NCBI RefSeq assembly: GCF_000738435.1
Contig: NZ_CP003984.1
Span: forward strand, 2,418,001-2,482,000
Direction of reading: 5' to 3'
DNA length: 64,000 nucleotides
DNA from: Planktomarina temperata RCA23
GTDB lineage: Bacteria; Pseudomonadota; Alphaproteobacteria; Rhodobacterales; Rhodobacteraceae
Shown here one piece after another: positions 5,496-47,688 of the stretch. Below the pieces are notes generated by a model. The model did no database searches. It had not been told where the DNA came from and saw only the letters and a program-made list of their open reading frames with translations. The position numbers and the translations under genes were made by a program. Each line of letters opens with the position of its first letter. Within the stretch, counting starts at the first letter, position 1.

Positions 5496-5929
5496 AGTGC
5501 TGTCAGACGAATGAGAACTCGCATCAGATTGCTAGCGCAGCCTGGATCTATGCGCTTAATAATTGGCGCCACTCAGTAAGAGCCGCGGTTCGATTGGGGC
5601 TGTCAGACTAATGAGAACCCGCATCGGATTGCTGGCGCAGCTTTAATCTATGCGCTCAATAGTTGGCGCCACTCAGCAAGAGCAGCGGTTCGATTGAGCT
5701 TGAAATTGTCTCGTGAGTAGAAGTGGCGCTCCTGTACCCCCCTCACAGCCAACCTAATCCCAAACGCAGCCTGTGTAGCGTTCTTAGCAGACAAGAGTGG
5801 CCTCGGCGGGCAAAAAGCATTATAGCCAGACGGATAATCTCTGGGCTTGTTTTAAAGTAGCGCAATGGGGTGCATTCACGCACGCGATAAACTCGCCCGC
5901 CCACTTCAACCAAGTTTAATATGACAAAG
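5496..5929. mobile_element. Tandem IS6-type left ends and a short IS6-derived element (MITE-like)
   Basis: Bases 5496-5596 match the left end of the IS6-family element seen intact at 23955-24771 (CTGTCAGACGAATGAGAAC onwards). A second left end starts at about 5597. After about 135 bp its IS sequence gives way to a roughly 65-bp foreign core (to about 5800). From about 5819 it resumes with a diverged IS right end (ATAATCTCTGGGCTTGTTTTAAAG) and ends near TTTAATATGACA at 5929. No transposase remains. The core recurs at 8.13 and 9.8 kb, which points to a non-autonomous derivative and not a simple deletion. Confidence 0.75.
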
Positions 5930-9680: not shown

Positions 9681-10122
9681 GATGCTGTCAGACAAATGAG
9701 AACTCACATCGGATTGCTAGTGTAGCCTGAATCTACGCACCCAATAATTGGCGCCGCTCAGCGAGCGCAGTGGCACGGTTTGTCTTGAAATTGATGCGTG
9801 AATAGAGATGGCGCTCATCTAGGGCTGTACAGTCAACCTAACCCCACACCCAGACTGTGTTGCGCCTTGAGCGAACCATACACCCCCAACAGGAAAACAG
9901 CTGCGTAACCGCGCGCCAAAACAAACATGTTTGCATCCACGCGCAGGCGTGCGGGCGCGTGACGCAAATAGCGGGTATGGTCAACCAAAGGGGGGACAGC
10001 ATCATCGCCAACCGGATGATCTCAGGGCTCGTTTTAAAGTAACTAAATTGAGAGCTTTTTGTCATACGGAGAGCTTAAGAAACCGCCACGTACGGCTCAA
10101 GCTCGTTTTATCTGACAGTGCC
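9681..10122 (-). mobile_element. IS6-derived degenerate element with foreign core
   Basis: The left end (CTGTCAGACAAATGAGAACT) and right end (GCTCGTTTTATCTGACAGTGCC) match the intact IS6 copies. The right end still encodes the first 20 or so transposase residues on the minus strand (MTKSSQFSYFKTSPEIIRLA). The transposase body is replaced by the core shared with 5.7 and 8.1 kb plus about 100 bp of GC-rich sequence. It cannot move by itself but keeps both termini. Confidence 0.75.
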
Positions 10123-10720: not shown

Positions 10721-10776
10721 TGGTGCCCCCACACGGACTCGAACCGCGGACCTACTGATTACAAATCAGTTGCCCA
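10721..10776 (-). tRNA. 3' part of tRNA-Thr(TGT), probable attachment-site remnant
   Basis: On the minus strand this reads as the end of the D arm, a perfect anticodon arm (stem ACTGA/TCAGT, loop TTTGTAA, anticodon TGT), variable loop AGGTC, a T arm with loop TTCGAGT, the acceptor 3' strand TGGGGGC, and A plus CCA. The 5' acceptor strand and most of the D arm are missing: the next bases (higher coordinates) do not pair with GGGGGC. Such 3' fragments are what integration into a tRNA gene leaves at one end of an element. By orientation the element would extend to the right of it. No intact partner copy is visible in the window. Confidence 0.65.
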
Positions 10777-10869
10777 TAAAAACTCACACCACAGTTCAAA
10801 TTGAATCCGATTTGCCAATAAGAGCAATCAAGCTATTTCAACTAATAATTCAATCAGTCTGAGATATAC

Positions 10870-11508
10870 ATGAAAGCCAATTTGAACTTCAATCGCCGCC
10901 AATGGCTCGCTGCTACTTTTGGATTTTTGGCCACCTCAATAGCCAGCCCCATACTCGCACAGACAAGAATTCGCCGCATCCGGACCCAATATATCGCAGC
11001 GCTTGGAGCCGAGGGTGCTACTTCAGGAACAGGCGCGGAAACTTGGGGACTTTGGAAAGAAGATCCTGGTCCAATTGGCGTATGGCTTAGGCTCTATCAG
11101 ACACTCCAAAAGGCGGGCAATTTGGCCCCTGCTGGCTGGAGGTTTGACATTGATGATTGGTGGCTAGATGAGAACGGCCTGATCATGAAGGCTCCAGAAT
11201 TTCCAATCCCTGCTGGGCAGTATTTTGTAACAAATGGTGAGGAACACTTCTCTTTACTCACCATCGAGGATCCCGATGCAGAAGGGAAACAATCTTGGTC
11301 ACTGTCTGACGATAAAACACTTGCTAATGTGACCCATGGGCCCTGTAGATCAGCGCGCTACACGCCAGAGGGTGAAAGCGGCACATGTTCGCCAGAATAC
11401 GCAGACCGTTCTGCATTCCCATTAAAGCCGGGGGAATCACCCCCATTAGTCAGCGGATGCACTCGCAAAAATTATGCAGTTCTGATTGTGATAGGCATTC
11501 CAGTTTAA
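10870..11508 (+). CDS. Conserved secreted protein of unknown function, possible Tat substrate
   Basis: This 212-residue protein begins with a signal peptide that has paired arginines (NRRQWLAATFGFLATS) and an AxA-type cleavage region near SPILAQ. The mature part carries conserved-looking segments: GTGAETWGLWKEDPGP, GWRFDIDDWWLDENGL and THGPCRSARYTP. I recognise the general type as a conserved hypothetical of Rhodobacteraceae but know no function. Cysteines near the C-terminus might pair. It sits alone between the tRNA fragment and the methyltransferase gene, so it may be cargo of the element. Confidence 0.65.
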   Translation: MKANLNFNRRQWLAATFGFLATSIASPILAQTRIRRIRTQYIAALGAEGATSGTGAETWGLWKEDPGPIGVWLRLYQTLQKAGNLAPAGWRFDIDDWWLDENGLIMKAPEFPIPAGQYFVTNGEEHFSLLTIEDPDAEGKQSWSLSDDKTLANVTHGPCRSARYTPEGESGTCSPEYADRSAFPLKPGESPPLVSGCTRKNYAVLIVIGIPV

Positions 11509-11683
11509 GTGATGTTACTATAATTAACGTTTATGATAAATATATCAACAAGTTGCAAAATTTCTTAGGTTTCTACCAGTTAACAGTAATGATATGATTG
11601 AAGCATGAAAACTGGCCGAACAATTCAGTTTGGCTGGTTATTGGCTTCAATATTGAAGCCCTAAATCAACGGAAGGAGTTGGC

Positions 11684-12973
11684 ATGTTGCTGACCACTTG
11701 TTCGTTGGGTCTTGGGGAGCTTCGTTCGTCAAACTCAACACCTCGCAAACACTCTCAACGCCAAATTAAAAAGGCAAAGGACCTCTTTGCAAAACAAAGC
11801 ATCGTTGTTCCTATTATTGTAGACGAATACCATCACATAATTGATGGGCACCTTAGGTTCATGGTGGCGCGTGAACTTGGTATCGAAAACCTCAACGCAG
11901 TTGTTGTCTCTGAGGCGTCAACTGCCGAGATCATCGAACTGGAATTAGCCCTCAACCGCCTCGGAGAAGACAGCAACTGGGATGAGGCGCGCTTAAAGGA
12001 AAAGCTAGAGCAGCTCTTAGAGTTCGATGTTGATCTGCGCTTCACAGGGTTTGAACAAGCTGAGATTGATAAATTACTTCACTTTGAAATTATTGATGAG
12101 GCAGAACAAGATTGGGGCAACACGGCTCCCGTAACAAGGCCTGGCGATATCTGGCGCGTTGGCGACCACATCATTGCCTGCGTGGACGCATTATCGCCAG
12201 AAGCGGCTTTAAGCGAACTTGATGATCTGCCCTTGGCCAAAGTGTGCGTAACAGACCCTCCATACAATGTGCCCACGAAAGGCCACATCAGAACCAGTCA
12301 TGATCATCAAGAATTTGCCATGGCTGCTGGCGAAATGTCAGACGCAGAGTTCGAGGAATTTCTAAACGCATTTCTTAGATCAGCTCTCAACCTTACAACA
12401 GACAAGGCGCTTTTCTATGTCTGTATGGACTGGCGCCATATCAACCATTTGAACGCAGCGGCAAAGACGCAGCAACTGACGCCCCAGAACTTGTGTGTTT
12501 GGGCCAAGACAAATGCAGGGATGGGATCCTTTTACCGTTCACAGCATGAATTGGTTGCTGTCTACAGCCGAGCCAAAACCTTCCAAAATAATATCAACCT
12601 TGGGGCGAGTGGCCGATACCGGACAAATATTTGGCACTATGATGGCGTAACCAGTTTTGGCCCCACTCGGACCGAAGATTTAATAGATCACCCCACTGTG
12701 AAACCCACGAAGCTGATTGCCGACATTCTTTTAGATTGTACCTCGATCGGTGATTGGGTGTTGGATCCGTTTTTAGGAAGCGGCACCAGTTGCCTCGCTG
12801 CAGAGCAGGTCAATCGACGCTGTCTTGGACTTGAGTTGGAACCTAAATTTGTCGATGTCGCTCTCAAGCGGCTTAAAGAAAGATGCAGCCTAGACGCAGT
12901 TCATGTTCAGACGGGTAAAAGCTATGCTGACATTAGCCGTGAACGTCTTACAAAGAGTGAGGACGCAGCATGA
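11684..12973 (+). CDS. ParB-like nuclease domain fused to a beta-class DNA methyltransferase
   Basis: The 429-residue product has an N-terminal ParB/Srx-like domain (residues about 15-130; IDGHLRFMVARELG near 53-66) and a C-terminal amino-methyltransferase. The catalytic motif DPPY is at 191-194 and precedes the S-adenosylmethionine motif DPFLGSGTS near 365, the beta-class order used by N6-adenine and N4-cytosine enzymes. An AAGGAG site supports this start. The stop overlaps the next gene (ATGA). Such fusions are common in phages and phage-like elements; it probably marks element DNA, and no cognate nuclease gene is adjacent. Confidence 0.88.
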   Translation: MLLTTCSLGLGELRSSNSTPRKHSQRQIKKAKDLFAKQSIVVPIIVDEYHHIIDGHLRFMVARELGIENLNAVVVSEASTAEIIELELALNRLGEDSNWDEARLKEKLEQLLEFDVDLRFTGFEQAEIDKLLHFEIIDEAEQDWGNTAPVTRPGDIWRVGDHIIACVDALSPEAALSELDDLPLAKVCVTDPPYNVPTKGHIRTSHDHQEFAMAAGEMSDAEFEEFLNAFLRSALNLTTDKALFYVCMDWRHINHLNAAAKTQQLTPQNLCVWAKTNAGMGSFYRSQHELVAVYSRAKTFQNNINLGASGRYRTNIWHYDGVTSFGPTRTEDLIDHPTVKPTKLIADILLDCTSIGDWVLDPFLGSGTSCLAAEQVNRRCLGLELEPKFVDVALKRLKERCSLDAVHVQTGKSYADISRERLTKSEDAA

Positions 12974-13335
12974 CTCATAGAAACCCTCCAAAAAAATATC
13001 AGTTCAAAAAAGGCCAGTCCGGCAATCCCAAAGGCCGCCCACGCAAAAAATTGCAAGCCGGCACAACTCTCGCCGATGACCTAAGGCGCGAGCTGAGTGA
13101 AGAAATTATGGTCAAGAAAAATGGAGAGACCAAGCGCGTTACCAAGCAAAGCGCTTTAATATCTTCAATAGCAACCTCGGCAATAAATGGCGGCAGTAGC
13201 CAGCAACGCCTCCTTGTCCAAATTCTAAGCATGTCTGGCATGGACAAAGACAACGCCATCGACGCTGAAGAGCTCCAGAGACATGACGAAGCGCTTTTGT
13301 TGGAATTGCAGAAACTTGGTCTCAAGATTGATTAG
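12970..13335 (+). CDS. DUF5681 protein, probable terminase partner
   Basis: This 121-residue basic protein shows the DUF5681 hallmark near its start: FKKGQSGNPKGRPRKK at residues 14-29. The rest is predicted helical and ends in an acidic/leucine-rich tail. It overlaps the methyltransferase stop by four bases and is followed 7 bp later by the terminase gene. Its size and position fit a small-terminase-like DNA-binding role, but that is inference from context. Confidence 0.8.
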   Translation: MTHRNPPKKYQFKKGQSGNPKGRPRKKLQAGTTLADDLRRELSEEIMVKKNGETKRVTKQSALISSIATSAINGGSSQQRLLVQILSMSGMDKDNAIDAEELQRHDEALLLELQKLGLKID

Positions 13336-13342
13336 GCCGATC

Positions 13343-14776
13343 ATGACACATAACATAAGCCAGAGAACTTCAGAGGCCCTTCTTCGGCGGTCGCCCAGCC
13401 TGTTCTTCACGCATTTATTTCCAAAGATCGATACCGTTCGCAACTTTGAGTGCCCGTGGTACCTTCATGCCATAAGCAAATACTTGCTTGAGATGTACTA
13501 CGGCACTTGTCCTCGCTTGATCCTTAACGCTCCACCACGCTCGTTGAAAACCTCTTTGGCAAACACCTATTTTATACCTTGGCTTCTCGGAAAGGATCCA
13601 TCCACAAAAGTGATGGTTGTCACCTACGGCGACGACCTTTCTTCAACACTCGCAAAAGCCACGAAGAAAGTGTTTCTGCATCCAGCCTATAAGAAAATCT
13701 TTCCCCATACCGTTTTAGAAAATGACAATATGCAAGCCACTCGGCTGCGCACATCAAAAGGCGGCCATGTTATCTTCACCTCCCTACATGGAGTGATGAC
13801 CGGCCTTGGTGCAGATTGGATTATCCTCGATGACCCCCTACAGGTGGCCCATATGCGGTCTGAGACCCGCCTGGATGACGTCATCCGAGTATTTAAGCAA
13901 AGTGTCAGCACGCGTCTCAACAATCCAAAGAATGGTAAGATACTTCTCATACAGCAACGCATCAGCCCAAATGATTTGTGCGGCGCATTAACTGATACGC
14001 CCATGCATCCTTGGAAAATTTTATGCCTGCCAGCCCGCTTTGATGAGCCAGCCCAATTTGATTTAGGGCTATTTGGAAAGAAAGATGTTGAAACAGGGGA
14101 TCTTCTAACACCTGCGCGAATGCCAGAGGCTTTTCTCAATGAGAAAAAAGCTGAGATGGGCGATGCAGCCTATTATGCGCAGTATTTACAAAAGCCTCTT
14201 CATGAGAGCGACTGTCCGATTGATTTTAAGAAAATTAAGCACATCAGTAGGGAGGAGTTTGATGAAATCAGTCTTGCACCCACAATTTATCAAAGCTGGG
14301 ATACGGCGCTCTCGGACAAACCATCCGCCGATTATTCTGCAGTAACAACTTGGGCAAAGTTTGAGGATGGCCGTTATGTATTGCTTGATGCAGCGCGCTA
14401 CCGCGTCACGAGCGAAAAACTTCAAAGCAAAATCGTGCAGCAAGCACGGGCGCATTCCGCACGATTTGTTTGCATTGAAAAGGCAAATCATGCGGCTGAT
14501 CTTATTCGAATGGTCGCACCTGAGATGCCGGATGGGTGCATTGTGAGATCCGTACCAACAGGTGGAACCTCTAAAATGCAGCGGCTGGAGGCACAGCTGC
14601 ATAAGATCAACACTGGCAAAGTGTTCTTCTTAAGTGACGAGCCGAACCTTGAGCTTGTTAACAATGAGCTGCGGCAATTCCCGAATGGACGCTACGATGA
14701 CCTGGTCGATAGCTTCTCACAGGCGCTTGCTCAAATGGGGACTGGAAGCGGCGTACCATTTTGGCGCATTAGCTGA
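13343..14776 (+). CDS. Phage terminase large subunit
   Basis: This 477-residue packaging motor protein has an ATPase P-loop variant APPRSLKTS at about 63-71, Walker B WIILDDP at 159-165, and a C-terminal RNase H-like nuclease with YQSWDTALSDK (acidic residue D320) and a late VDSFSQAL aspartate near 462. All main parts are present, so it is likely active. I prefer the ATG at 13343, just after the DUF5681 stop; the frame extends 20 codons upstream into that gene. There is no portal, protease or capsid gene beside it, which is unusual. Confidence 0.9.
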   Translation: MTHNISQRTSEALLRRSPSLFFTHLFPKIDTVRNFECPWYLHAISKYLLEMYYGTCPRLILNAPPRSLKTSLANTYFIPWLLGKDPSTKVMVVTYGDDLSSTLAKATKKVFLHPAYKKIFPHTVLENDNMQATRLRTSKGGHVIFTSLHGVMTGLGADWIILDDPLQVAHMRSETRLDDVIRVFKQSVSTRLNNPKNGKILLIQQRISPNDLCGALTDTPMHPWKILCLPARFDEPAQFDLGLFGKKDVETGDLLTPARMPEAFLNEKKAEMGDAAYYAQYLQKPLHESDCPIDFKKIKHISREEFDEISLAPTIYQSWDTALSDKPSADYSAVTTWAKFEDGRYVLLDAARYRVTSEKLQSKIVQQARAHSARFVCIEKANHAADLIRMVAPEMPDGCIVRSVPTGGTSKMQRLEAQLHKINTGKVFFLSDEPNLELVNNELRQFPNGRYDDLVDSFSQALAQMGTGSGVPFWRIS

Positions 14777-14890
14777 GACGGATAAATCTGAAACTTTGGA
14801 CTGGACTACGCCCCAACCGTAAGCCTGTATGCTCCTAAGCTCGAATACCATCGGGCTTTGCTCAGTGACAATGATCACAAGGAGCAAAAT

Positions 14891-15286
14891 TTGGACCCCT
14901 CATTTGAAACTTTAAAAACCGCAAGCCGCGCTGATCTCATTGATGCATGGCGCGAGGCTATCGGCAGGCCGGCACCAAAACACATTAGTCGATCACTTTT
15001 GATCACCGTTCTTTCTTTTGAGCAGCAGGCAAAACAATATGGGAGGTCAAACCAAAGGTTCCGTCAAGCCTTGGAGCGGCAAGTTAGCGGCAAAGCCTCC
15101 AAGCCCAAGCTGCAATCAGGAACGCGGTTTGTACGCGAGCATCATGGCAAGACCCATGTTGTCGACGTAGACGCGTCGGGAGCCTTTATCTGGCGGGGCA
15201 AGCCCTTTGCATCCCTATCTCAGGTCGCCAAGCAAATATGCGGCTATCACTGCTCAGGACACAAATTCTTCGGGGTAACAAAATGA
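14891..15286 (+). CDS. DUF2924 protein
   Basis: This protein of about 131 residues matches the DUF2924 pattern: ADLIDAWREAIGRPAP near the start, ISRSLLITVLSFEQQAKQYG, then GTRFVREHHGKTHVVDV and WRGKPFASLSQVAKQICG, with a likely DNA-binding end. I chose the TTG at 14891 because AAGGAG lies six bases before it; the frame also allows a TTG at 14858. The stop overlaps the recombinase start (ATGA). DUF2924 genes usually accompany serine recombinases, so it is probably an accessory or directionality factor (inference). Confidence 0.8.
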   Translation: MDPSFETLKTASRADLIDAWREAIGRPAPKHISRSLLITVLSFEQQAKQYGRSNQRFRQALERQVSGKASKPKLQSGTRFVREHHGKTHVVDVDASGAFIWRGKPFASLSQVAKQICGYHCSGHKFFGVTK

Positions 15287-16899
15287 GTGCAGCCCATCAT
15301 CAAAAAACCCGTGCAGCTATCTATACGCGAAAATCTAGGGAAGAAGGTCTCGAGCAGGAGTTCAATTCTTTAGACGCCCAACATGAGGCCTGCGCGGCCT
15401 ACATTACCAGCCAACGACATGAGGGCTGGAAACAATTAAAGGGCCGCTTCGATGACGGAGGGGTATCAGGAGGAACTATGGATCGCCCTGCCCTCACGCG
15501 CCTTTTGGCGGATGTAGATCAAGGCCTGGTTGATATGATCGTTGTCTATAAGATCGACCGATTGACGCGCTCCTTGAGCGACTTTGCCAAATTAATTGAC
15601 CGGCTGGAGGCGAAGGGCTGCTCTTTTGTGTCCGTGACACAATCTTTTAATACGTCGACATCCATGGGGCGCCTAACACTGAATGTGCTTCTATCATTTG
15701 CTCAATTTGAGCGTGAAGTCACAGCCGATCGCATTCGCGATAAAATTGCGGCCTCAAAAAAGAAGGGTATGTGGATGGGCGGCCGGGTGCCCTGGGGATA
15801 CGCCATTCATCCCGATCCAAAGGTTCAATCCTTAGAGATACATCTCGAGCATGCCAAAGATATCCAACGGATATATGATCTATACGAGGAACTTGGATGC
15901 TTAGCGCAGGTTAAAAGCCAAATTGATAGCCTATGGCCAGAGCGCAATTATAGCCGTGGCCGTATCTATAAAATCTTAACCAACCCAATCTATATTGGTA
16001 AGATCCGCCACAAGACCGACATCTATGAAGGCCTTCATTCCGCCATCATCGATGTGGCGCAATTTAACCGGGTTCAAGAACAGCTCAAACTCAAATCAGC
16101 CATCAAACGTGGGACCCACCCTACGCGAGGATTGTCCGCCTGCTTGATCGGAAAAATCTACGACGAGACTGGAGATCGCCTTACGCCCTCCAACACAAAG
16201 CGCAAGGGCCGTGTACATCGATATTACTACTCCAATCGCCTAACAATTAAAGGTGCTGATCCAACAGGCTGGCGCATCAAAGCTGAGACCCTTGAGACAG
16301 CTTTATCTTCGATGGTGAAATCCAATCTTATGCAGGCCTTCCAGGCCACTGATATAGAAGATGGCCTCACAGCTCATGAGCTTACCCAATACATAACTTG
16401 TATAGAAACACTGAAGTCCCAAGCAGCATTAAAGCTCATCTCTCGCGTAGATTTAACCAAAGGCAATATAACGATCGCCATTAATCAAAAGGAGCTTGAG
16501 AAGCTTCTCCAATGCTCTTCAAACCTAATAGAGGCAGAGCGATTAACATTTAACGAACCCATTACATTCCAACGCAGGCAAAATGGTACAAAGCTTTTCT
16601 GGGCCCAATATGAAACAGGCCCGAGACTGCATCTCATCAAGGCCCTTCACGATGCTCACACCTGGCTTGATCTGCTAAAATCCGGCAAACAAATTACCGA
16701 CATTACTCAAGCCACAGGACTTCTCGACGGGACTATTTGGAAGCGTGTTCGGCTCGCATGTCTGTCGCCAAAAGTTCAAAAGGCCATCCTTAACGGAACA
16801 TTAAATCCAGAGTTCACCATTCGCTATTTGCAAAGCAAGCGTGTGCCTGCAACCTGGGTTGAGCAAGACAAGCTCTTAATCAGCAAAGTTCCCTGTTAA
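15283..16899 (+). CDS. Large serine recombinase
   Basis: This 538-residue protein has the resolvase catalytic domain first (YTRKSREEG, nucleophile serine at about residue 18; KIDRLTRSLSDF near 92; FAQFEREVTADRIRDK near 150) and then the recombinase domain with GGRVPWGYAIHP and ILTNPIYIGKIRHKTDIYEG. The zinc-ribbon region near LSACLIGKIYDETG has few cysteines, so it is modified. The start at 15283 overlaps the DUF2924 stop and follows GGGGTAAC. The stop codon lies inside the first of several TTCCCTGTTAAT repeats, which suggests that the gene end is part of the recombination or end region. Confidence 0.9.
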   Translation: MSAAHHQKTRAAIYTRKSREEGLEQEFNSLDAQHEACAAYITSQRHEGWKQLKGRFDDGGVSGGTMDRPALTRLLADVDQGLVDMIVVYKIDRLTRSLSDFAKLIDRLEAKGCSFVSVTQSFNTSTSMGRLTLNVLLSFAQFEREVTADRIRDKIAASKKKGMWMGGRVPWGYAIHPDPKVQSLEIHLEHAKDIQRIYDLYEELGCLAQVKSQIDSLWPERNYSRGRIYKILTNPIYIGKIRHKTDIYEGLHSAIIDVAQFNRVQEQLKLKSAIKRGTHPTRGLSACLIGKIYDETGDRLTPSNTKRKGRVHRYYYSNRLTIKGADPTGWRIKAETLETALSSMVKSNLMQAFQATDIEDGLTAHELTQYITCIETLKSQAALKLISRVDLTKGNITIAINQKELEKLLQCSSNLIEAERLTFNEPITFQRRQNGTKLFWAQYETGPRLHLIKALHDAHTWLDLLKSGKQITDITQATGLLDGTIWKRVRLACLSPKVQKAILNGTLNPEFTIRYLQSKRVPATWVEQDKLLISKVPC

Positions 16900-17045
16900 T
16901 GCCTATTTGATTCCCTGTTAATTTTGCCCAGCGCGCTTCTAAACACCAATAATTTATGGCTATTACAGCGTTTTTAGACATTTCCAGAACCCAAAAAAAA
17001 GAAAGTTCCCTGTTAATTTCCCTGTTAATTGCAAAAAACAGGGAA
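16889..17045. repeat. Cluster of TTCCCTGTTAAT repeats at the end of the serine recombinase gene
   Basis: The 12-mer TTCCCTGTTAAT occurs at 16889-16900, 16911-16922, 17006-17017 and 17018-17029; the last two are directly adjacent. A partial inverted copy, AACAGGGAA, is at 17037-17045. The first copy contains the recombinase stop codon. Repeats of this kind next to a recombinase gene may be binding sites, an attachment site or an end of the element. Confidence 0.8.
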
Positions 17046-17360
17046 ACTCGTGCTGCCGAAATATTGCCTCTGAGGAATAGGTTGAAACGGGGTAATTCTT
17101 GCGCGAGAGAAAATCCTCAGATCAAAAATCTGAAAATAACAGCCTGAAAACACGGGTATAAAAACCGGTTATATGAAGCTGTTGGATGTGAGAGAAATCA
17201 GTGGCGGACCGAGGAGCCGCCATAATACTATCCGCATTTGTCGAAATTCGTCGCATCAAAACTATACTATCAGCAACTTACACGAATACCATGTTTTTAT
17301 CTGTTGCAACTCGTCTGACCTAATGTGATTATTTATGGCGGGTAGGTAGAGGGATAAAAG
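17046..17360. other. Junction between two mobile elements, no gene seen
   Basis: This stretch separates the serine-recombinase module from the tyrosine-integrase element. I see no coding frame with credible features. It contains a small inverted repeat (GGCGGACC...GGAGCCGCC near 17204-17221) and AT-rich sequence before the integrase. A left attachment site of the integrase element is expected here, but I could not find a direct repeat of it on the right side. Confidence 0.4.
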
Positions 17361-18626
17361 ATGCCAAAGAAGGTTGCGGAACTGTCTGCCAAGGAAGTGC
17401 GGGACCTAAAATACTCAGGTCGTGGGTTGAATATAACCTATTCCGTAGGTGGTGTTGCCGGCCTCTTGGTGCAGATCACATCGACAGGCGCACGCTCTTG
17501 GGTGTTGCGTACAATGATAGGAAGCAAGCGCCGCGAAATTGGCCTTGGCGGATTTCCTGACGTTTCTCTTTCTCAAGCCCGCGAGCGAGCACGTGAGGCC
17601 AAAGAAGCTATCCGCCAAGGCATTGACCCAATAGAGCAAAGACGCGCAGCACGGGCTGCGCTAAAAGCAGAACAAGCGCGCGGCTTGACCTTTGCAAAAG
17701 CTATGGAGGCGTATCTTGAAATCAAACTGACAGAGTTTGGCAACAGCAGACACCGCAAGCAATGGCGTGCCAGTCTGGATGCCTACGCCGTGCCAACCCT
17801 TGGCCCAATGTTGGTCAGTGAAATATCGGTCCATGAAATTGCCCGTGCTTTAGAGCCTATCTGGACCACGAAAACAGAAACAGCGTCCCGCTTGCGTGGT
17901 CGCATTGAGTCCGTAATGGCGTGGGCAACAGTGCAAGGTCACAGAGAAGGTGACAACCCTGCCCGTTGGCGGGGCAACCTCGACGCGATCCTGCCCAAGC
18001 CATCGAAGGTTGCCAAGGTTACACACCATCCCGCGCTTGCTCTTGCTGACATATCGTCATGGTTTGCCGATCTACGCAAACGCGACGGGATGGCGACGCA
18101 AGCGCTTGAATTCCTGACAATGACCGCAGCACGATCTGGGGAGGTGCGCGGCGCGACATGGGCCGAGATCGACATCAAGGCGGCTTTGTGGACAATTCCA
18201 GCAGATCGAATGAAAGCCAGCAAAGAACACCGCGTGCCACTCACAGCTGATGCAGTAGAATTGCTGAAGGCATTACCCAGAATGACAGGCAGCGAATTCG
18301 TTTTTCCTGCAGCACGTGGCGGGCAGTTGTCGGATATGAGCCTAAGCGCGTGCATGAACCGCATACACAAGGCCAAACCCGATCGATACTTAGACTCACG
18401 ATCTGGACGCCCAGCGGTGCCACATGGGATTCGCAGCGCGTTTCGAGATTGGGCATCAGAGCACACCGACTATCCCCGCGAAATGGCTGAAATCAGTCTA
18501 GCACACACTGTCGGAAGTGAAGTCGAAAGAGCCTATCGACGCGGTGATCAGATGGAAAAACGGCGTGCTATGATGGCCGATTGGGGCAAGTTTTTAAATA
18601 ACGGAATTGAGGGGCATAAGTCATGA
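17361..18626 (+). CDS. P4-type tyrosine integrase
   Basis: This 421-residue site-specific recombinase has the N-terminal DUF4102 arm-binding domain (MPKKVAELSAKEVRDL, then GGFPDVSLSQARERAREAK near 60-80) and the catalytic core with RSGEVRGATWAEI (first arginine near 258), HGIRSAFRDW (HxxR, near 354) and the terminal tyrosine in EVERAYRRGD near 391. All catalytic residues are present. P4-type integrases use tRNA or similar sites, usually next to the gene. The stop overlaps the following small gene by four bases. Confidence 0.92.
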   Translation: MPKKVAELSAKEVRDLKYSGRGLNITYSVGGVAGLLVQITSTGARSWVLRTMIGSKRREIGLGGFPDVSLSQARERAREAKEAIRQGIDPIEQRRAARAALKAEQARGLTFAKAMEAYLEIKLTEFGNSRHRKQWRASLDAYAVPTLGPMLVSEISVHEIARALEPIWTTKTETASRLRGRIESVMAWATVQGHREGDNPARWRGNLDAILPKPSKVAKVTHHPALALADISSWFADLRKRDGMATQALEFLTMTAARSGEVRGATWAEIDIKAALWTIPADRMKASKEHRVPLTADAVELLKALPRMTGSEFVFPAARGGQLSDMSLSACMNRIHKAKPDRYLDSRSGRPAVPHGIRSAFRDWASEHTDYPREMAEISLAHTVGSEVERAYRRGDQMEKRRAMMADWGKFLNNGIEGHKS

Positions 18627-19081
18627 AAGCCAAAACAAGGCTTGCCAGCAAAGCCAAGCCAGTAGCGGTTAAAATGGCAGTAGAATGTGAAAAACTGGCC
18701 CAAGAGGCAGGCGAAAAATATCGACTTGCGTTAACAAATGAGGACAAGTTCGCAGCACTGGAGGCGCAAAGTAGCTACAATCAACTGGCCGCCGACTGGC
18801 GTGCAACAGCACTTAGGGCCGAAGAATTAAGCCCGCAAAAATTTACGGGGCGCAACAATGGACCAAACGCGCAAACCCTTAAACGGGTTCAATTCATAAA
18901 TGAAGTTTCAAGCGCGATTGGACCTGCAAGCCATGAAGCAATCGCATCCGAGGCAGCGGGTAAAAACTATGCAAAGAAAGCAAAGGCGTTATGGTCCGGA
19001 AAATCAATAGATCGCGAATCTAAGATACTGAACTTCATGAGGAATAACGCAAAAAATCTAAGTCTAACTTTCAAAGACTAG
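18623..19081 (+). CDS. Unknown 152-residue protein of the integrase element
   Basis: The product is basic and predicted mostly helical, with an N-terminal Lys/Ala-rich stretch, a central KYRLALTNEDKFAALEAQ segment and a possible coiled coil. I recognise no domain. It overlaps the integrase stop by four bases (ATGA), so it is co-translated with it and may act with the recombinase, but this is context only. Confidence 0.6.
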   Translation: MKAKTRLASKAKPVAVKMAVECEKLAQEAGEKYRLALTNEDKFAALEAQSSYNQLAADWRATALRAEELSPQKFTGRNNGPNAQTLKRVQFINEVSSAIGPASHEAIASEAAGKNYAKKAKALWSGKSIDRESKILNFMRNNAKNLSLTFKD

Positions 19082-19152
19082 ACCCCTTGGGGTGTTCTTT
19101 TTCGTCGGAATTTAGCTTCATTAATCTGCATCACTTTAAACAAAAAGGATGC

Positions 19153-19380
19153 ATGACAATGCAAACAACGCTGACCCCCACACCCAAAAATAGAAGACAG
19201 GCTTTTCTTTCTGATCGACAGGTGGCTGAACGCTATAGCGTATCGCGGCAAACCCCATGGGGCTGGTTGAAAAAGGGCGTTGATTTCCCACAACCTATAA
19301 GTCTTTCACGAGGATGCACCCGCTGGCGGTTGGCAGACCTTGAAGCGTGGGAAAACGCACAGCACTCCACTCACAAGTAA
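19153..19380 (+). CDS. AlpA-family small transcriptional regulator/excisionase
   Basis: This protein of about 75 residues has the AlpA-type winged helix: FLSDRQVAERYSVSRQTPWGWLKKGVDFPQP followed by RWRLADLEAWE. Such proteins control integrase expression and excision in P4-like elements. The frame opens at 19087, but an AAAAGGA site points to the ATGs at 19153 or 19159. It lies in the usual place between integrase and replication genes. Confidence 0.82.
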   Translation: MTMQTTLTPTPKNRRQAFLSDRQVAERYSVSRQTPWGWLKKGVDFPQPISLSRGCTRWRLADLEAWENAQHSTHK

Positions 19381-19481
19381 TATCTCGCCCGAAACGGTGA
19401 CGGACGGGTCACACAAGGTGCTGGCCAGTATCTGTGCATACGCCGTGCATTCCTAGGGCAAAACCCCCAGAGGCAAAATCT

Positions 19482-19922
19482 ATGAAGATTGAGCAACATA
19501 TTGAAATTGGTAAGCCAACCGGTGAACCTATCGTACTCAAGGTGCTAGGAGATGACGAACTTAGCACAACCAACTCACCGATCGGACTTGAGCAATCAAC
19601 TTATGCCAGCCCAATTGCGGCACAGCATAAGCCCTCCTCCCGCAGAGAGAGAGACGACCACTACGCAGACGTTGTTATCCATCTTAGCTCACGTTGGCGG
19701 ATCATCGTCTGCAAAGATGGCATCCAGTGGATACTGCAGCAGCGTTCAGTAGCACTCCCGAACACAGGGACGTGGAGCGGTAAAAGCTACTCGACAACAC
19801 GAAGCGGGCTGATGGCAGCCTGTTCGGACCGAGAACTGCTCTTAGACCCATCTGAGGGTCAGGCGCTCGACGCTCTGCCCTCCACTTTTCGCGAATTCAT
19901 CACTGAGCGCCCCCGCTCATAA
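19482..19922 (+). CDS. Unknown protein of the integrase element
   Basis: The product from this start is about 146 residues (MKIEQHIEIGKPTGEP at the N-terminus). A central part HYADVVIHLSSRWRIIVCKDGIQWILQQR looks like a small beta-rich domain seen in element-borne proteins of unknown role. I chose 19482, preceded by AGAGG; the frame opens 16 codons earlier. It lies between the AlpA-like and primase-like genes. Confidence 0.6.
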   Translation: MKIEQHIEIGKPTGEPIVLKVLGDDELSTTNSPIGLEQSTYASPIAAQHKPSSRRERDDHYADVVIHLSSRWRIIVCKDGIQWILQQRSVALPNTGTWSGKSYSTTRSGLMAACSDRELLLDPSEGQALDALPSTFREFITERPRS

Positions 19923-20035
19923 ACAAACCGCGCACTCGAAAGCACGCGGTTTGCTGAATGTAGGTATAACTTGGGGAAGTAACCTACGTTCACGATAGCA
20001 TGTTTCTTGGTGCGCCTCAATTGAAAGGCTCTCCC

Positions 20036-21085
20036 ATGGACAGCACAATTAAGCTACTTCGTATCAATGGATCCCGCGACACACGCAGTTCCGTTGGTAC
20101 AGACTATAACACCGTCACCTTCCATGACATCGCTGCAATGGCTGACTGTCCTCTCGCAGTGGCTAAACTTGACGCGCCCGCGTTTGTGGCATCGAGCTAT
20201 GTCAGCTCCGACGCACGCTCACATGAAGTGCAGCGGCGGCACGGACAGTTCCACGCCTTTGTCGTTGATGTGGATGAGAACGGACCAACACTGGAGGCTG
20301 CAGATGCGGCCTTAACGGCCATCCTTAGCGACTGCGCCCGTATTATCTACTCCACAAGCAGCGCGTCAGCTGAGGCTCCTAAATGGCGTGCCATCGTGCC
20401 TTTCCTCACACCTATAAGCGGTATGCAGTATGAGCAGCTGCAACGCGCCTTGTTCGAGCTTCTACAGGCACATGGGATCGCTTGTGACAGCGCCATGCAG
20501 GGAGCCGCTCAGATGGCTTTCTTGCCCAATGTGCCGCCAGACAAGCGCGGTGAGGATGGTGCGCCAAAATATTATGAATATTTAGTGTGCCAAGCGGACA
20601 GTCTCTCGCATCCACCTAAATGCCTTTTGGACATGGCAGAGCAAATTGCGGAACGAGATATCGAGGCGCAGGCAATTGCGGCTGCAGTTGCGAAAGACAG
20701 AGCGCAACAAAGGCGGAAGCATCGTAAACACTCAGGGATGCTATCACCCATTGAGCAGTTCAATGCAGACCATGACCTAGCACAGGTGCTGTTAGAATGC
20801 GGCTGGGAGCCACGAGGACGTGCCTGCTACGCGTCGCCCTATTCTCAAAGCAAAGGGCCATCAGTCTATGTTTACGACCAGCGCGCAGTAAGTTTCACCA
20901 GTAGTGATGCAGGTCAGCTCGGCAAAGAGACATCTAATGGCTGGACGACCTATGACGCTTGGGATGTCTTTGTGGCGCGCGTACACGGCGGCAGCGAGCG
21001 GGCTGCTCTGGAGAATTACTGCGAAGTGTCCGGCTACAACCAAGTCAAACTGCATACCATTGTTAAAAAGTGGGGGCAGTCGTGA
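20036..21085 (+). CDS. Primase-like (archaeo-eukaryotic primase/RepB fold) protein
   Basis: This protein of about 349 residues has an N-terminal domain resembling element-encoded primases: HAFVVDVDENGP near residue 83 supplies an acidic D-x-D pair, followed by ARIIYSTSSASAEAPKWRAIVPF and an MAFLPN segment. The C-terminal part resembles helical regions of replication proteins. I place the start at 20036 (MDSTIKLL), since the 12 codons before it look non-coding. It is followed by the VapE-like helicase in a TGATG overlap, so the pair forms a primase-helicase system acting on the element's own DNA. Confidence 0.7.
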   Translation: MDSTIKLLRINGSRDTRSSVGTDYNTVTFHDIAAMADCPLAVAKLDAPAFVASSYVSSDARSHEVQRRHGQFHAFVVDVDENGPTLEAADAALTAILSDCARIIYSTSSASAEAPKWRAIVPFLTPISGMQYEQLQRALFELLQAHGIACDSAMQGAAQMAFLPNVPPDKRGEDGAPKYYEYLVCQADSLSHPPKCLLDMAEQIAERDIEAQAIAAAVAKDRAQQRRKHRKHSGMLSPIEQFNADHDLAQVLLECGWEPRGRACYASPYSQSKGPSVYVYDQRAVSFTSSDAGQLGKETSNGWTTYDAWDVFVARVHGGSERAALENYCEVSGYNQVKLHTIVKKWGQS

Positions 21086-22413
21086 TGGAACCGAATAAAC
21101 TTCAACACACCGCAGTCGATACATCGAAAAAACCTGTTGAGTTCGGCGATGGTCGTGTGGCGCCTAACCTCGAACATTTGGCGCTCGACGTTTCTAAAGA
21201 TGGTATAGCTAAATCTCTCAGTAATATGGTCACGATACTGGACGGATTGAGTTGTTGGACTGGAGTGTTTGCTTTCGACGAGCTTGCAGAACAGATTATG
21301 GTCCTCCGCCCCCTACCCAACAGCCGCGGCAATCCGAACTTCCACAATCCTCGGCCATTGCGAGATGAAGATATCAGCACCGTCAAGATTTGGCTGAACC
21401 GTCGCCTAAAATGGGAGACAGTGAATAAAACTGAAGTATTCGATGCCATTCAGCTAGCAGCTCGTGAACGTATTATCTCACCCATCCGTCATTATATTGA
21501 GGGGCTGCCCCCCATGGAGGTGGACGAGGCACATGATTTTCTTACCGAGGTGTTGAACACGCACTTCAGCCTACGCCGATACGGCGAGCATCCAGATGCA
21601 ATACGATATTCGGAACTGGTATTTCGAAAATGGTTAATCTCAGCTGTTGCACGCGCACTGCGGCCTGCCTGTAAGGCTGACCACGTGTTGATCCTTGAGG
21701 GCGCACAGGGCGCAGGTAAGTCCACAGCTATTCGTATTCTGTGCGGTGACGCATACTTTGGAGACAGCCTACCAAAGCTCGATAGCAAAGATGCGGCTGA
21801 TTATGTGCGCGGAAAGTGGATAATTGAGCTGGCAGAATTGTCATCCGTATCGAAGACGGAGGTCGAGCATGTGAAGGCTTTTATCACCCGCACCGAGGAA
21901 AAGTTCAGACCAGCCTATGGGCGTAACGAAATCGCCTACCAGCGCCGCTGCGTGTTTATTGGAACCACAAACCGCACGGACTACCTGCGTGATGAGACAG
22001 GCAACCGCCGGTTCTGGCCTATTAAACTTGAGACGGTTGATGTGGCCACCATAGAGAAGGACCGAGATAGGATTTGGGCAGCGGCCAAGGCGCTCTATGA
22101 TGCTGGCGAGCAATGGTGGCTGACAGATGCCGAGGCGCTGCTGGCAGAGGCACAGCAAGAACGGCGCACAGCAGTCGACCCTCTTTATGATGAGGTGGCA
22201 GAATGGCTCAGTTCAACCAAAAAGATGGAAACCTGCATGCGAGAAATTATGCAACAGGTAGCCTTTGTCGATGAAGCGACGTCAGCCGCCGCTATGACAC
22301 CACTTATGCAGCACCGTATCCGAGGTGCGCTTAATGCGGCAGGCTTTGAAAGCACAGGACGGAAGTTCAGCGCCGGCGACTACAAGGGCATGACGAAGTT
22401 CGCGCTTGTGTAG
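21085..22413 (+). CDS. VapE-like P-loop NTPase (virulence-associated E family)
   Basis: The 442-residue protein has a P-loop GAQGAGKST at 206-214, Walker B WIIELAEL near 240 and an arginine-rich QRRCVFIGTTNRTDYL followed by DETGNRRFWPI, all typical of VapE/primase-C-terminal helicases found in phages, satellites and integrative elements. It overlaps the preceding gene (TGATG). With that protein it probably initiates replication at the inverted repeats just downstream. Confidence 0.88.
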   Translation: MEPNKLQHTAVDTSKKPVEFGDGRVAPNLEHLALDVSKDGIAKSLSNMVTILDGLSCWTGVFAFDELAEQIMVLRPLPNSRGNPNFHNPRPLRDEDISTVKIWLNRRLKWETVNKTEVFDAIQLAARERIISPIRHYIEGLPPMEVDEAHDFLTEVLNTHFSLRRYGEHPDAIRYSELVFRKWLISAVARALRPACKADHVLILEGAQGAGKSTAIRILCGDAYFGDSLPKLDSKDAADYVRGKWIIELAELSSVSKTEVEHVKAFITRTEEKFRPAYGRNEIAYQRRCVFIGTTNRTDYLRDETGNRRFWPIKLETVDVATIEKDRDRIWAAAKALYDAGEQWWLTDAEALLAEAQQERRTAVDPLYDEVAEWLSSTKKMETCMREIMQQVAFVDEATSAAAMTPLMQHRIRGALNAAGFESTGRKFSAGDYKGMTKFALV

Positions 22414-22953
22414 CGCAAGGCGCGATAGCCCCCACACGGCGAAAAAAGAGGGGAGCGTAGCGGTGGAGCAAGCCTCCGCTGCGCGCTTTCCGCCCCTATT
22501 AGAGGGGAGCGGTGGAGCGAGTGGAGCAAATATACCGAAACAAATACAACATATATAACCTTTTGTTTTACAATGTATATTCAGGTATAATTGGGAAACG
22601 ATGTTTTACACCGCGGTGGCGTTGCGTAAGTTACATGGAATTTGCTCCACTCGCTCCACCGCTCTACTTTGGCGCCCAGCCGTCTGCATACTTTTCTCAC
22701 AGGCTGATCCAAGATCTCGCGGCTTCCTCTTTCCTGCTCCGGCCTACATCGAAAAATCTTCAGGAATGCCAAGCTTCACCTCAAATTGTGTCGAGGTCTT
22801 ATTTGCGAATGGAGTGACGCCTCACGGCAGGCGACAAATGTCCATTTAAGTAAACCGTGTATAGAGTGGTCGCTTTTGAGCGTGAGGATCCAGAGGTAGA
22901 TAGATATCCAATTATAAAGCAATGCAAAATTTCTGAGTGGAAGGAAATCCAAT
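22414..22953. other. Candidate replication origin: perfect 25-bp inverted repeat with AT-rich spacer
   Basis: No gene is seen in these 540 bases. Two perfect inverted copies of a 25-bp sequence lie at 22507-22531 (GAGCGGTGGAGCGAGTGGAG onwards) and 22640-22664. They enclose 108 bp that are strongly AT-rich (ACATATATAACC, GTATATTCAGG). A shorter copy, AGCGGTGGAGC, is at 22459-22469. The position directly after a primase-helicase pair resembles P4-type origins. The stretch 22665-22953 leads to tupA and holds nothing else I can name. Confidence 0.6.
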
Positions 22954-23754
22954 ATGTTTAAAGTATTAATTGTTATTCTGTCGCTTGCGCTGACCAGCGG
23001 CACAGCAATTGCGGACGCGATGAAGCTGGCCGTGACCACTTCATTCGAAAACTCCGGTCTGGCTGACGTGCTACTCCCTCAAATTAAAACTGATCTTGAT
23101 ATTGACGTTCAGCTTTTGGTCGTGGGTACCGGGCAAGCGATACGTTTAGGTGAAGCAGGGGATGTCGATGCTATATTGGTGCATTCGAAAAACGCGGAAG
23201 AAGCCTTTGTTGAAGCAGGTCACGGAAAATATCGGCGAGAGATCATGTATAACGATTTTGTGTTGATTGGCCCAGTGGGTGATCCAGCAGGTATTTCTGA
23301 CGACTCAACGGCGGTTAAAGCCATGCAGAACATTGCCCGGACAGAAGCCTTGTTTGTAAGCCGAGGTGATGACAGCGGCACTCACAAGGCTGAACTTGCC
23401 ATTTGGCGCAGTGCAGATTTAGACCCTGCGAATTTTGGAGAATGGTATAACTCCGTAGGTGCAGGAATGGGCGCTGCCCTCAACACTGCAGCCGGGCTTG
23501 ATGCATACATCCTAGCTGACCGAGCCAGCTGGTTAAAGTTTGGTAACAAGTCTGGATTAGGTTTGCTTTATTCGGGCGATCCGGCACTGTTCAACCAATA
23601 CGCATATTTGCCAGTCAACCCAGCAAAGTACTCTCATGTCCGCAATGATCTAGCAGTGCAGCTTGAGGACTGGCTTGTCAGCGATAGAGCGAAGGATTTG
23701 ATCGATGGATATATGATCAATGGTGAAACATTGTTTGTGTTCAACGCAGAATAA
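22954..23754 (+). CDS. tupA: Tungstate ABC transporter substrate-binding protein
   Basis: This 266-residue periplasmic protein has a signal peptide (ending near TAIADA) and the TupA signature: AVTTSFENSGLADVLLPQ near residues 26-43, VVGTGQAIRLGEAGDVDAILVHS near 56-80, then SRGDDSGTHKAE near 145. TupA proteins bind tungstate with very high affinity and select against molybdate. GGAAGG precedes the start. Its permease and ATPase partners are not adjacent but at 33448-34152 and 32738-33439 on the other strand, so the operon has been split. Confidence 0.92.
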   Translation: MFKVLIVILSLALTSGTAIADAMKLAVTTSFENSGLADVLLPQIKTDLDIDVQLLVVGTGQAIRLGEAGDVDAILVHSKNAEEAFVEAGHGKYRREIMYNDFVLIGPVGDPAGISDDSTAVKAMQNIARTEALFVSRGDDSGTHKAELAIWRSADLDPANFGEWYNSVGAGMGAALNTAAGLDAYILADRASWLKFGNKSGLGLLYSGDPALFNQYAYLPVNPAKYSHVRNDLAVQLEDWLVSDRAKDLIDGYMINGETLFVFNAE

Positions 23755-23930: not shown

Positions 23931-23954
23931 CTTCCTCCGTGAAATGGTTCCAAC

Positions 23955-24771
23955 GGTGCTGTCAGACTAATGAGAACTCGCATCGGATTGCTGGCGCAGC
24001 TTTAATCTATGCGCTCAATAGTTGGCGCCACTCAGCAAGAGCGGCGGTTCGATTGATCTTGAAATTGTCTCGTGAGTAGAAGTGGCGCTCCTGATTGAAA
24101 TGGTTGTGGACTGAAGAGTGGACGGCAGCGAACTTTTGCAAACATCGCATCTGTCGAAAGCGGAGCATAGCGCGTTCTCGTCGTCGAAACGGCAAGTGGG
24201 AATTCTCAGCCCGATTATTTACCCAGCGACCCGTTTCCTGCCGATCCGCATTGCCAACAACTTTCATTGCAGCGCCATAGGAACGTAGTTTGTCCGTCAC
24301 AACTACTTCTGGCCCGCCGTAGCGCTTCATTGCTTTTCTGAGAAATTTCAAAGCCGCTTTGCGGTCTCGGCGCTTGGTTACATAACTTTCCAGCACCTCA
24401 CCTTCGTGATCAACGGCGCGCCAGAGATAATGTGTCTCTCCATTTATCTTTACGAAGACCTCGTCCAAGTGCCATTGCCAGTTCGAATAAGATCGCATCC
24501 TACTGACCCGGTTTCTTCGTATCTCAGCAGCAAACATCGGACCAAATCTATTCCACCAAAACCGAACTGTTTCGTGGCTGACCTCAATGCCTCGTTCGTG
24601 CAGAAGATCTTCCACGTTACGGAGTGAGAGCGGAAAACGAACATACAGCATCACAGCCAAGCGGATGATCTCAGGGCTCGTTTTAAAGTACCTGAACGGG
24701 GAGTGTTTTGTCATACGGAGAGGCTACGAGACCACCCTGCACGTCTCAAGCTCGTTTTGTCTGACAGTGCC
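23955..24771 (-). mobile_element. Intact IS6-family insertion sequence, copy 1 (817 bp)
   Basis: The element is bounded by inverted ends GGTGCTGTCAGAC and GGCACTGTCAGAC (the latter read from the right). It holds one full transposase gene on the minus strand. It has the same length as the copy at 48298-49114. The 8 bp on each side (GTTCCAAC and CTAAAAAA) are not a target duplication, so the copy has probably taken part in a deletion, inversion or cointegrate event. Confidence 0.88.
24007..24714 (-). CDS. IS6-family transposase
   Basis: The 235-residue DDE transposase has the N-terminal helix-turn-helix (EIIRLAVMLYVRFPLSLRNV) and catalytic residues in HLDEVFVKI (D), VVTDKLRSY (D) and NRAENSHLPFRRRER (E). 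It looks full length and intact. It differs from the copy at 48.35-49.06 kb by only a few residues, which indicates recent activity in this genome. Confidence 0.93.
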   Translation of the reverse strand: MTKHSPFRYFKTSPEIIRLAVMLYVRFPLSLRNVEDLLHERGIEVSHETVRFWWNRFGPMFAAEIRRNRVSRMRSYSNWQWHLDEVFVKINGETHYLWRAVDHEGEVLESYVTKRRDRKAALKFLRKAMKRYGGPEVVVTDKLRSYGAAMKVVGNADRQETGRWVNNRAENSHLPFRRRERAMLRFRQMRCLQKFAAVHSSVHNHFNQERHFYSRDNFKINRTAALAEWRQLLSA

Positions 24772-47583: not shown

Positions 47584-47688
47584 GGCGCTGTCAGACGAAT
47601 AAGAGCTCGCATCGGATTGCTAGTACAGCCTAAACCTATGCGCTCAATAGTTGGCGCCACTCAGCAAGAGCAGCGGTTCGATTGAGCT
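47584..47688 (-). mobile_element. IS6 left-end fragment
   Basis: This begins GGCGCTGTCAGACGAATAAG and matches the first ~105 bp of the intact IS6 copies. Its right side runs straight into the terminase small-subunit gene and supplies that frame's last codons (LLLLSGANY). Confidence 0.8.

Follow-up and report, generated by a model that had tools for sequence, protein, structure and literature searches.

A small phage-derived integrative element at tRNA genes of Planktomarina temperata that may bring its own terminase to helper capsids

Phage-inducible chromosomal islands (PICIs) and capsid-forming PICIs (cfPICIs) are integrated islands that use phage packaging and often bear defence cargo; cfPICIs carry terminase genes together with genes for capsid proteins, replication and a tyrosine integrase. 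Tycheposons, which use tyrosine recombinases, insert at tRNA genes, and the PICI-like element (PLE) of Vibrio cholerae does not, to our knowledge, carry a terminase large subunit (TerL). Here we analysed a stretch of 64,000 bases, the window, which corresponds to bases 2418001–2482000 of the complete 3,288,122-base chromosome of Planktomarina temperata RCA23 (hereafter, own genome). Within it, at window positions 10721–17216, lies a unit in which a ParB-methyltransferase (ParBMT), a DUF5681 protein and TerL, together called the trio, are accompanied by a DUF2924 protein and a large serine recombinase. Compared with cfPICIs, this five-gene element has TerL and a serine recombinase, and is without a recognised capsid gene or replicase. 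The unit is very probably a mobile element. For the reading as a whole, that of a small integrative element of phage origin which targets tRNA genes, supplies its own terminase to the capsids of a helper and is perhaps gated by methylation, we regard the case as evenly balanced.

PLE resembles the element in being a phage satellite described with a large serine recombinase (PMC6002521), and differs from it in replicating itself (PMC7145576). A further likeness is to tycheposons and virion-encapsidated integrative mobile elements (VEIMEs), described as chromosomal islands of marine bacteria and suspected satellites (PMC10803314); the element possibly overlaps with some VEIMEs. Wolbachia phage WO has the pair of DUF2924 protein and serine recombinase and, except for sr1WO, is reported to have a methylase/ParB gene (PMC9203015). 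Unlike the element, WO is a full phage with head and tail modules, and its recombinase is 31.7% identical to that of the window. The Streptomyces satellites MulchRoom and MiniFlayer are similarly described as being without key replication genes and as encoding terminase subunits (PMC10690885), but they also encode a portal and a major capsid protein and infect Streptomyces with helper phages. Marine Charybdis elements were considered and set aside, as they are reported to have no virus hallmark proteins and one of their clades integrates in archaea (PMC12324425). In the literature that we covered on satellites, terminases, DUF5681, DUF2924, VEIMEs and tycheposons we did not find the five-gene element described; the original VEIME and tycheposon papers and most subscription papers lay outside this scope.

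If satellites can travel with little beyond an integrase and a terminase, many tRNA-borne alphaproteobacterial islands of unknown transfer route may be phage-mobilised, and the five-gene signature finds such islands. The element also opens to experiment the question of whether phage-type recombination and packaging are gated by DNA methylation, and it suggests possible functions for DUF5681 and DUF2924. The lineage of the own genome is reported to be without plasmids, prophages (one incomplete prophage excepted) or complete gene transfer agents (GTAs) (PMC10675870), and if the reading is true, the element would be among the few ways in which genes move there.

An earlier note, made from the letters of the window alone, had described the five genes as a tightly ordered run ending at 17045. 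All five are present as claimed on the + strand by Pfam and PHROGs. ParBMT (11684..12973) pairs ParB-N with an N6_N4, CcrM-like adenine-type DNA methyltransferase domain (PF01555, E=2.4e-30; PHROG 498, E=2.6e-96); its ParB_N match lies below the Pfam cut-off, and PHROG ParB families support the ParB reading. The DUF5681 gene (12970..13335; PF18932, E=4.8e-21) takes the position of a small terminase subunit, and is followed by TerL (13343..14776; PHROG 38, E=2.4e-77; Terminase_6C just under the cut-off), whose open frame begins at 13283 and for which the start at 13343 was used. The DUF2924 gene (14858..15286; PF11149, E=1.2e-27) has a TTG start and encodes a predicted RAMA-like C-terminal domain, and the recombinase gene (15283..16899) matches PF00239 (E=1.5e-38), PF07508 (E=9.7e-9) and the PHROG 95 integrase family (E=2.8e-85). 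Read directly at the junctions, the methyltransferase and DUF5681 genes, and likewise the DUF2924 and recombinase genes, overlap by ATGA, and TerL starts 7 nt past DUF5681, so the tight spacing held there; the DUF2924 start lies 81 nt past TerL, a wider gap than the few bases described. The end at 17045 did not hold, as the homologous unit, defined by alignment to a second own-genome copy, reaches 17216 and includes a sixth conserved gene on the + strand at 10870–11508.

This second copy (L003) lies 83.5 kb away and was the only other place found by a TerL search of the own genome. Window 10721–17216 aligns with L003 6261–12753 in two pieces of 94.6 and 94.8% DNA identity, with 11493–11628 differing between the two pieces, and both copies are sharp-ended with unrelated flanks. 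Because this second copy exists and the gene set recurs in other genomes, we take the unit to be beyond chance. Among 20 genomes of the genus Planktomarina, TerL was found in two, the own genome included. The other, G002 (74% complete), has its copy (L014, L023) at tRNA-Arg(ACG), adjoining the same histidine-kinase gene as L003; its proteins are 69–82% identical to those of the window, with DUF5681 at 54–58% in two pieces. In a congener, G014, the flank left of the G002 element runs directly into tRNA-Arg, and G014 therefore represents the empty site and G002 the occupied one. This comparison, which the earlier note had proposed, shows, at the level of sequence, insertion at the 3′ end of tRNA-Arg. 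Measured from TGG to TGG, the element is 6470 bp in G002 and 6478 and 6481 bp in the own copies. At the same tRNA-Arg, G011 retains only the right end, from the recombinase C-terminus onward, beside IS-like sequence.

We found the element well beyond the genus. In a family sample of 394 genomes TerL was present at E<=1e-60 in nine, and in a class (Alphaproteobacteria) sample of 385 genomes profile A2 matched at E<=1e-80 in 34, both counts including the own genome; the class matches fell in 42 places. Of the 40 outside the own genome, 39 (L168–L206) were analysed by scanning their open frames with hidden Markov models (HMMs) grown from the window proteins. All five genes occurred in 15 of these (the contig of L179 stops within the recombinase) and also in L016, L019 and L023 from the genus and family searches, giving 18 loci outside the own genome. 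Ten class places held TerL only (L180, L190, L191, L194–L196, L201 and L204–L206, with L201 and L206 at contig ends), L178 keeps a shortened TerL with DUF2924 and recombinase, four lie at contig ends or on short contigs (L171, L185, L188, L197), and the remaining nine have the trio with no DUF2924–recombinase pair in the stretch examined. The genus and family searches also gave trio-only loci (L018, L020–L022) and a shortened TerL alone (L017). The trio was observed in two of three 0.9-Mb genomes of one genus (L189, L192), the third having TerL cut by a contig end (L201). Among the best 80 IMG/VR contigs, at least 19 carried all five genes, and L122 had all but the methyltransferase, at its contig start. 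TerL of the element kind was rare on plasmids (8 of 72,556 records at E<=1e-40), the best match being on a Sphingobium megaplasmid, where a trio is surrounded by metabolic genes. The trio was on one strand in all 59 loci having its three genes, and in 38 of 42 loci with both DUF2924 and recombinase the latter started at most 250 bp from the DUF2924 end on the same strand, which speaks against the random unlinked combinations that the note had allowed for; how the trio is oriented towards the recombinase pair differs among loci.

The five genes are also found on MT839917.1, a 5365-base human faecal phage record from Mexico, in the order recombinase, short DUF2924, methyltransferase, DUF5681, TerL. 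Virus-like particles of Mexican children, prepared with filtration and DNase, are described in PMC8361208, and going by source and country this study is likely the origin of the record, whose accession is not in the main text. If so, the element was in particles, a lead rather than proof as contamination is possible. Another human faecal record from Mexico, MT837927.1 (L232; 5961 bases), has the DUF2924–recombinase pair at 492–2596 without a terminase.

Recombinases of the element sit next to tRNA genes far more often than their neighbours do. Twenty recombinases are followed by at least 700 bp of sequence. For 14 of these, the 3′ end of a tRNA (Arg, Ser, Met, Ala or Val) faces the recombinase within 2.1 kb, a limit chosen after the distances were known, and for 12 within 650 bp; among other open frames of at least 300 aa in the same loci, the control, 3 of 286 lie so. 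Two of the 14 (L003, L023) are from Planktomarina and face the same tRNA. The window copy was scored as a miss, since its recombinase-proximal border (17202..17216, − strand) is a 15-nt 3′ end of tRNA-Arg(ACG); the same 15 nt end the intact tRNA-Arg at the second copy, and ARAGORN found no whole tRNA anywhere in the window. In L181 a 22-nt T-arm repeat with 2 mismatches lies 6303 bp from tRNA-Met and delimits a 6.3-kb element of the five genes alone; across the 13 tRNA-abutting loci, a tRNA 3′ repeat at the far end was clear in L181 only, the other 12 being at chance level. The G014/G002 pair and the abutment in 14 of 20 loci indicate that the element, like satellites, has a specific attachment site along with an encoded recombinase.

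The genes of the element are maintained by selection, as had been proposed. Between the own copies, the ratio of nonsynonymous to synonymous substitution (dN/dS) was 0.05 for the sixth gene, 0.09 for the methyltransferase, 0.26 for DUF5681, 0.24 for TerL and 0.15 for both DUF2924 and the recombinase, consistent with purifying selection throughout. The TerL P-loop, Walker B and nuclease acids, which had looked intact in the window, are intact and are conserved among relatives: D340, E399, D473 and D476 in 68/68 element TerLs, K89 in 66/66 readable rows and D183 and D184 in 67/67, with D472 variable (62/68). TerL thus has the ATPase and nuclease residues of a terminase. DPPY or DPPF is present in 48 of 49 long methyltransferases, and the serine motif, as defined here, in 33 of 37 long recombinases, four being without it. 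In a FastTree phylogeny of 133 TerLs, one clade of 71 rows (support 97) comprised 37 five-gene-type, 23 trio, 2 TerL-plus-recombinase and 9 TerL-only rows. The TerLs of the window group (the window, L003, L023, L024 and L088) were placed separately, on a long branch that leaves an unresolved fork. A single origin of all element TerLs is not supported by this tree, as the window group falls outside the 71-row clade; either assembly or exchange of the five-gene set happened repeatedly, or the tree lacks the resolution to tell. Given the two copies at different sites, the occupied and empty pair, the recurrence, the tRNA abutment and the purifying selection, the earlier suggestion of a self-contained mobile element is well borne out.

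The absence of recognised capsid genes near the element was also confirmed. Neither the portal family PF04860 nor the capsid family PF05065 had a match in the whole 3.29-Mb own genome. Of 30 trio genomes, 12 have PF04860 matches, at 16 places of which none shares a contig with the module at a distance of 500 kb or less; 8 have PF05065 matches, at 12 places that all lie on contigs other than that of the module. The whole-genome searches were confined to these two families, and some phage types fall outside both. We compared 124 proteins neighbouring 34 trio loci (up to three downstream and one upstream of each) with PHROGs, and no virion family was among the 25 most frequent (down to 2 members) of the 140 families matched. 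Our own virion HMMs had no matches in 38 trio loci and 31 IMG/VR contigs, with low sensitivity (14 queries, which matched in 0–3 sources of a phage-like set). The trio loci searched with PF04860, PF05065 and PHROGs thus lack a complete virion gene set, as satellites do; they have neither the portal and capsid genes next to TerL of a prophage nor the TerL, portal and capsid genes of a cfPICI.

These observations led us to the following model. The serine recombinase, with DUF2924 as partner, would insert the element at a tRNA 3′ end and excise it. TerL, with DUF5681 as small subunit or loader, would cut and translocate element DNA and, because the element has no recognised shell gene, pack it into the procapsid of an infecting helper phage; for this use of its own terminase on a helper's capsid we see the chances as about equal either way. 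The note had suggested that the terminase may act on a helper's capsid or in some other handling of DNA. According to a review (PMC11389934), terminase genes suggest mobilisation by phages. ParBMT would mark element DNA, and the RAMA-like DUF2924 domain, and perhaps DUF5681, may read this mark, such that insertion, excision or cutting would depend on methylation. Variable genes, some of them defence-like, would ride along.

For DUF5681, a role beside TerL is suggested by Leptospira phage LE3, in which a gene overlapping the TerL start matches the DUF5681 HMM (1.6e-21) and a portal follows; by analogy, this position suggests the place of a small terminase subunit. In a phylum sample of 398 genomes, DUF5681 was present at E<=1e-8 in 34, with 30 loci given; ParBMT lies beside it in 28 of the 30, and an element-type TerL within ~1.5 kb in 14. 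We also observed TerL-free loci with ParBMT and one or two DUF5681 genes within ~1.5 kb (L238, L243, L246, L250, L251, L253–L256, L259, L261–L263), and in L244 another open frame in the TerL position that by eye looks like another terminase family. A search of BFVD with DUF5681 gave no match at E<=0.001, the high-ranking ones being phage DUF5681 proteins. DUF5681 may also have a role with the methyltransferase or in the particle.

For DUF2924, an AlphaFold model (mean predicted local distance difference test (pLDDT) 83; predicted template modelling score (pTM) 0.45) had as its best Foldseek match in the PDB the MPND RAMA domain with DNA (7ydw_A; probability 0.99, E 0.13, 2.3 A over 47 columns), and matched CcrM with a probability of 0.60. 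RAMA is a predicted reader of N6-methyladenine (6mA). Pfam RAMA was matched by 3 of 17 DUF2924 family members, the best at 4.5e-4 and the window's own protein not among them, and RAMA is partly equated with DUF2924 in PMC11342252. The predicted resemblance to the RAMA fold is suggestive, and links DUF2924 to adenine methylation. Against the CcrM model the methyltransferase gave E=3.4e-20, far below the model's cut-off. From a RAMA-like DUF2924 together with a CcrM-like methyltransferase comes the idea of gating, for which the Dam dependence of P1 pac cutting is an analogy; we offer it tentatively, and think it more doubtful than the mobility or the packaging.

Cargo was scanned in eight large neighbours picked by eye, of which seven had a Pfam family. 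Inside the element, between TerL and DUF2924, we found an Eco57I-type methylase (L170) and an AAA_13 protein (L187). A patatin, a TPR-kinase, a kinase-NERD protein, Dcm and an HsdR-like protein lie outside this interval, where membership of the element is unproven. In a PADLOC scan of the 124 trio neighbours, the 25 families listed of 200 were DNA methyltransferase types with 3 members each, and general defence-gene enrichment near trio loci was not supported by it.

A methyltransferase and an ATPase-nuclease, TerL, share one operon, and the trio could instead be a restriction-modification-like or anti-phage unit in which the motor acts as a translocating nuclease on unmarked DNA and the recombinase only moves the unit. 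The tight, ATGA-coupled operon, the constant strand of the trio in 59/59 loci, its occurrence without a recombinase and amid metabolic genes on the Sphingobium plasmid, some defence-like neighbours and the lack of recognised virion or replication genes would all fit. PADLOC, however, gave no match for DUF5681, TerL, DUF2924 or the recombinase, the five-gene set moves as one, the DUF5681–TerL order is that of a true phage (LE3), and phage WO also has the DUF2924–recombinase pair and a methylase/ParB gene, and we consider such a defence unit unlikely. A related version, in which the packaging motor would be the nuclease of a mobile self/non-self system, we judge unlikely: the methyltransferase would mark, DUF5681 and RAMA-type DUF2924 would read, TerL would cut or pump unmarked DNA, the mark would time excision by the recombinase, and capsid packaging would be secondary or absent. 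The terminase might also mobilise the neighbouring chromosome, with cutting at the element starting a lateral-transduction or GTA-like packaging of host DNA. An own TerL, fixed tRNA sites and the lack of a recognised replication gene agree with this, and in a lineage reported without prophages or complete GTAs (PMC10675870) any capsid must derive from elsewhere; packaging of the element itself agrees equally well with its tiny size, and we find this mobiliser quite improbable.

Prophage decay, by which a remnant would have kept integrase and terminase by chance, draws on the phage kinship of TerL. Four phage or phage-plasmid TerL relatives have a portal after TerL, three of them also with annotated protease and capsid; a TerL sub-lineage occurs in prophage-like loci; and single decayed copies exist (the shortened TerLs of L017 and L178, and the right end in G011). 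When 69 proteins neighbouring 13 TerL-only loci were compared with PHROGs, the portal, major head and scaffold families were each matched by 2 members, partly from L194 and L196. The note had asked whether homologues always sit in complete prophages; no PF04860 portal or PF05065 capsid match stands near the modules of the 30 genomes, but TerL-only L194 and L196 adjoin a portal and a major head gene, respectively. The joint occurrence of the five genes in 18 loci beyond the own genome and on IMG/VR contigs, the purifying selection and conserved catalytic residues, and the two copies with an occupied and empty pair, which indicate movement as a unit, speak against decay. Simple prophage decay is therefore rejected for the window, given recurrence, two mobile copies, selection and intact residues, and we regard it as very improbable.

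Several observations weigh against a helper-packaged, tRNA-targeting element. The TerL-only relatives L194 and L196 lie in prophage-like surroundings, and six of the nine TerL-only rows in the TerL clade form a nested clade that includes prophage-like loci. Eighteen of the 30 trio genomes, the own genome included, are without a PF04860 portal, and in many cases, therefore, the helper would have to arrive from elsewhere. By Pfam and PHROGs, the genes of the window's element include no recognised replication gene, and the 6.3-kb element of L181 has five genes only, such that no satellite-encoded replicase was found, whereas known phage satellites are described as replicating with their own replicases (PMC10690885). 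Six of 20 recombinases face no tRNA, and the examined stretches of trio loci L018, L020–L022, L168, L176 and L177 held no recombinase; many assemblies are drafts in which neighbours may be hidden. Neither an excised circle nor packaged DNA was observed: stretches of the best 80 IMG/VR contigs and MT839917.1 showed no exact terminal repeat, partial contigs being uninformative in this respect. In 14 of the 30 DUF5681 loci, ParBMT–DUF5681 pairs occur without an element-type TerL; the DUF5681 fold had no PDB match, and the virion proteins reported for Salmonella phage STGO-35-1 include a DUF5681 protein (PMC8954984), which is unexpected for a small terminase subunit. The MPND RAMA domain is reported to have bound methylated (6mA) DNA no better (PMC9963953). 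Finally, both own copies have 53 nt of tRNA-Thr at one end and tRNA-Arg sequence at the other, and their history therefore includes rearrangement.

The tRNA-Thr sequence at the distal end (10721..10773, − strand) is a 53-nt 3′ fragment of tRNA-Thr(TGT) that starts with TGG (CCA end), is identical in both own copies and matches intact congener tRNA-Thr genes; it is either the element's own part or an old target. To the left of L003 is the native flank of the congener tRNA-Thr, with 85.6% identity to G014 across 528 bp that include the tRNA fragment; a different flank accompanies the own genome's intact tRNA-Thr, near base 428880 (G000:C1). The left flank of the window copy also precedes a tRNA-Thr fragment in G019, where an apparent tyrosine integrase is next. 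At the tRNA-Arg copy, the native tRNA-Thr flank (L003:5788–6260) now abuts the element, and 2.08 Mb separate it from the intact tRNA-Thr. This arrangement suggests a large rearrangement via the element's ends. The ends of the own copies, being rearranged, are therefore unusable for placing the crossover, and the G002/G014 pair can place it to the last ~30 nt of the tRNA, anywhere within which it may lie. TGG (CCA end) as the exact crossover was considered; it is plausible but not fixed, as the G002 far end resembles a decayed tRNA-Arg 3′ end and the L181 far end carries the T-arm.

The sixth gene (10870..11508, + strand) encodes a protein of 212 aa that matches no Pfam or NCBIfam family and has, by eye, a twin-arginine-like N-terminal signal peptide. 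It is 82% identical in the congener, and its low dN/dS between own copies reflects strong purifying selection; the protein is possibly cargo. Past the recombinase, TTCCCTGTTAA direct repeats and an inverted AACAGGGAA at 17006..17045 are kept in the window, L003 and L023, and are a possible regulatory, terminator or packaging site. Adjoining the unit is a second mobile element (17361–23754) with a tyrosine integrase (17361–18626), a primase-like gene with a weak PHROG match (20000–21085) and a VapE-type helicase (21070–22413). By its gene content this neighbour looks like a P4- or PICI-type island, and it could be a supplier of replication. Three insertion sequence (IS) copies, 94–96% identical, lie at 24007–24714, 48350–49057 and L004 4875–5695, the copy at 24007 with an IS240/IS6-type DDE transposase. 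A dispersed repeat of ~100–140 bp occurs at 5497–5734, 9683–9813, 23954–24093, 47583–47690 and 48298–48436, as well as in L003, L004 and congeners, partly at the edges of IS copies.

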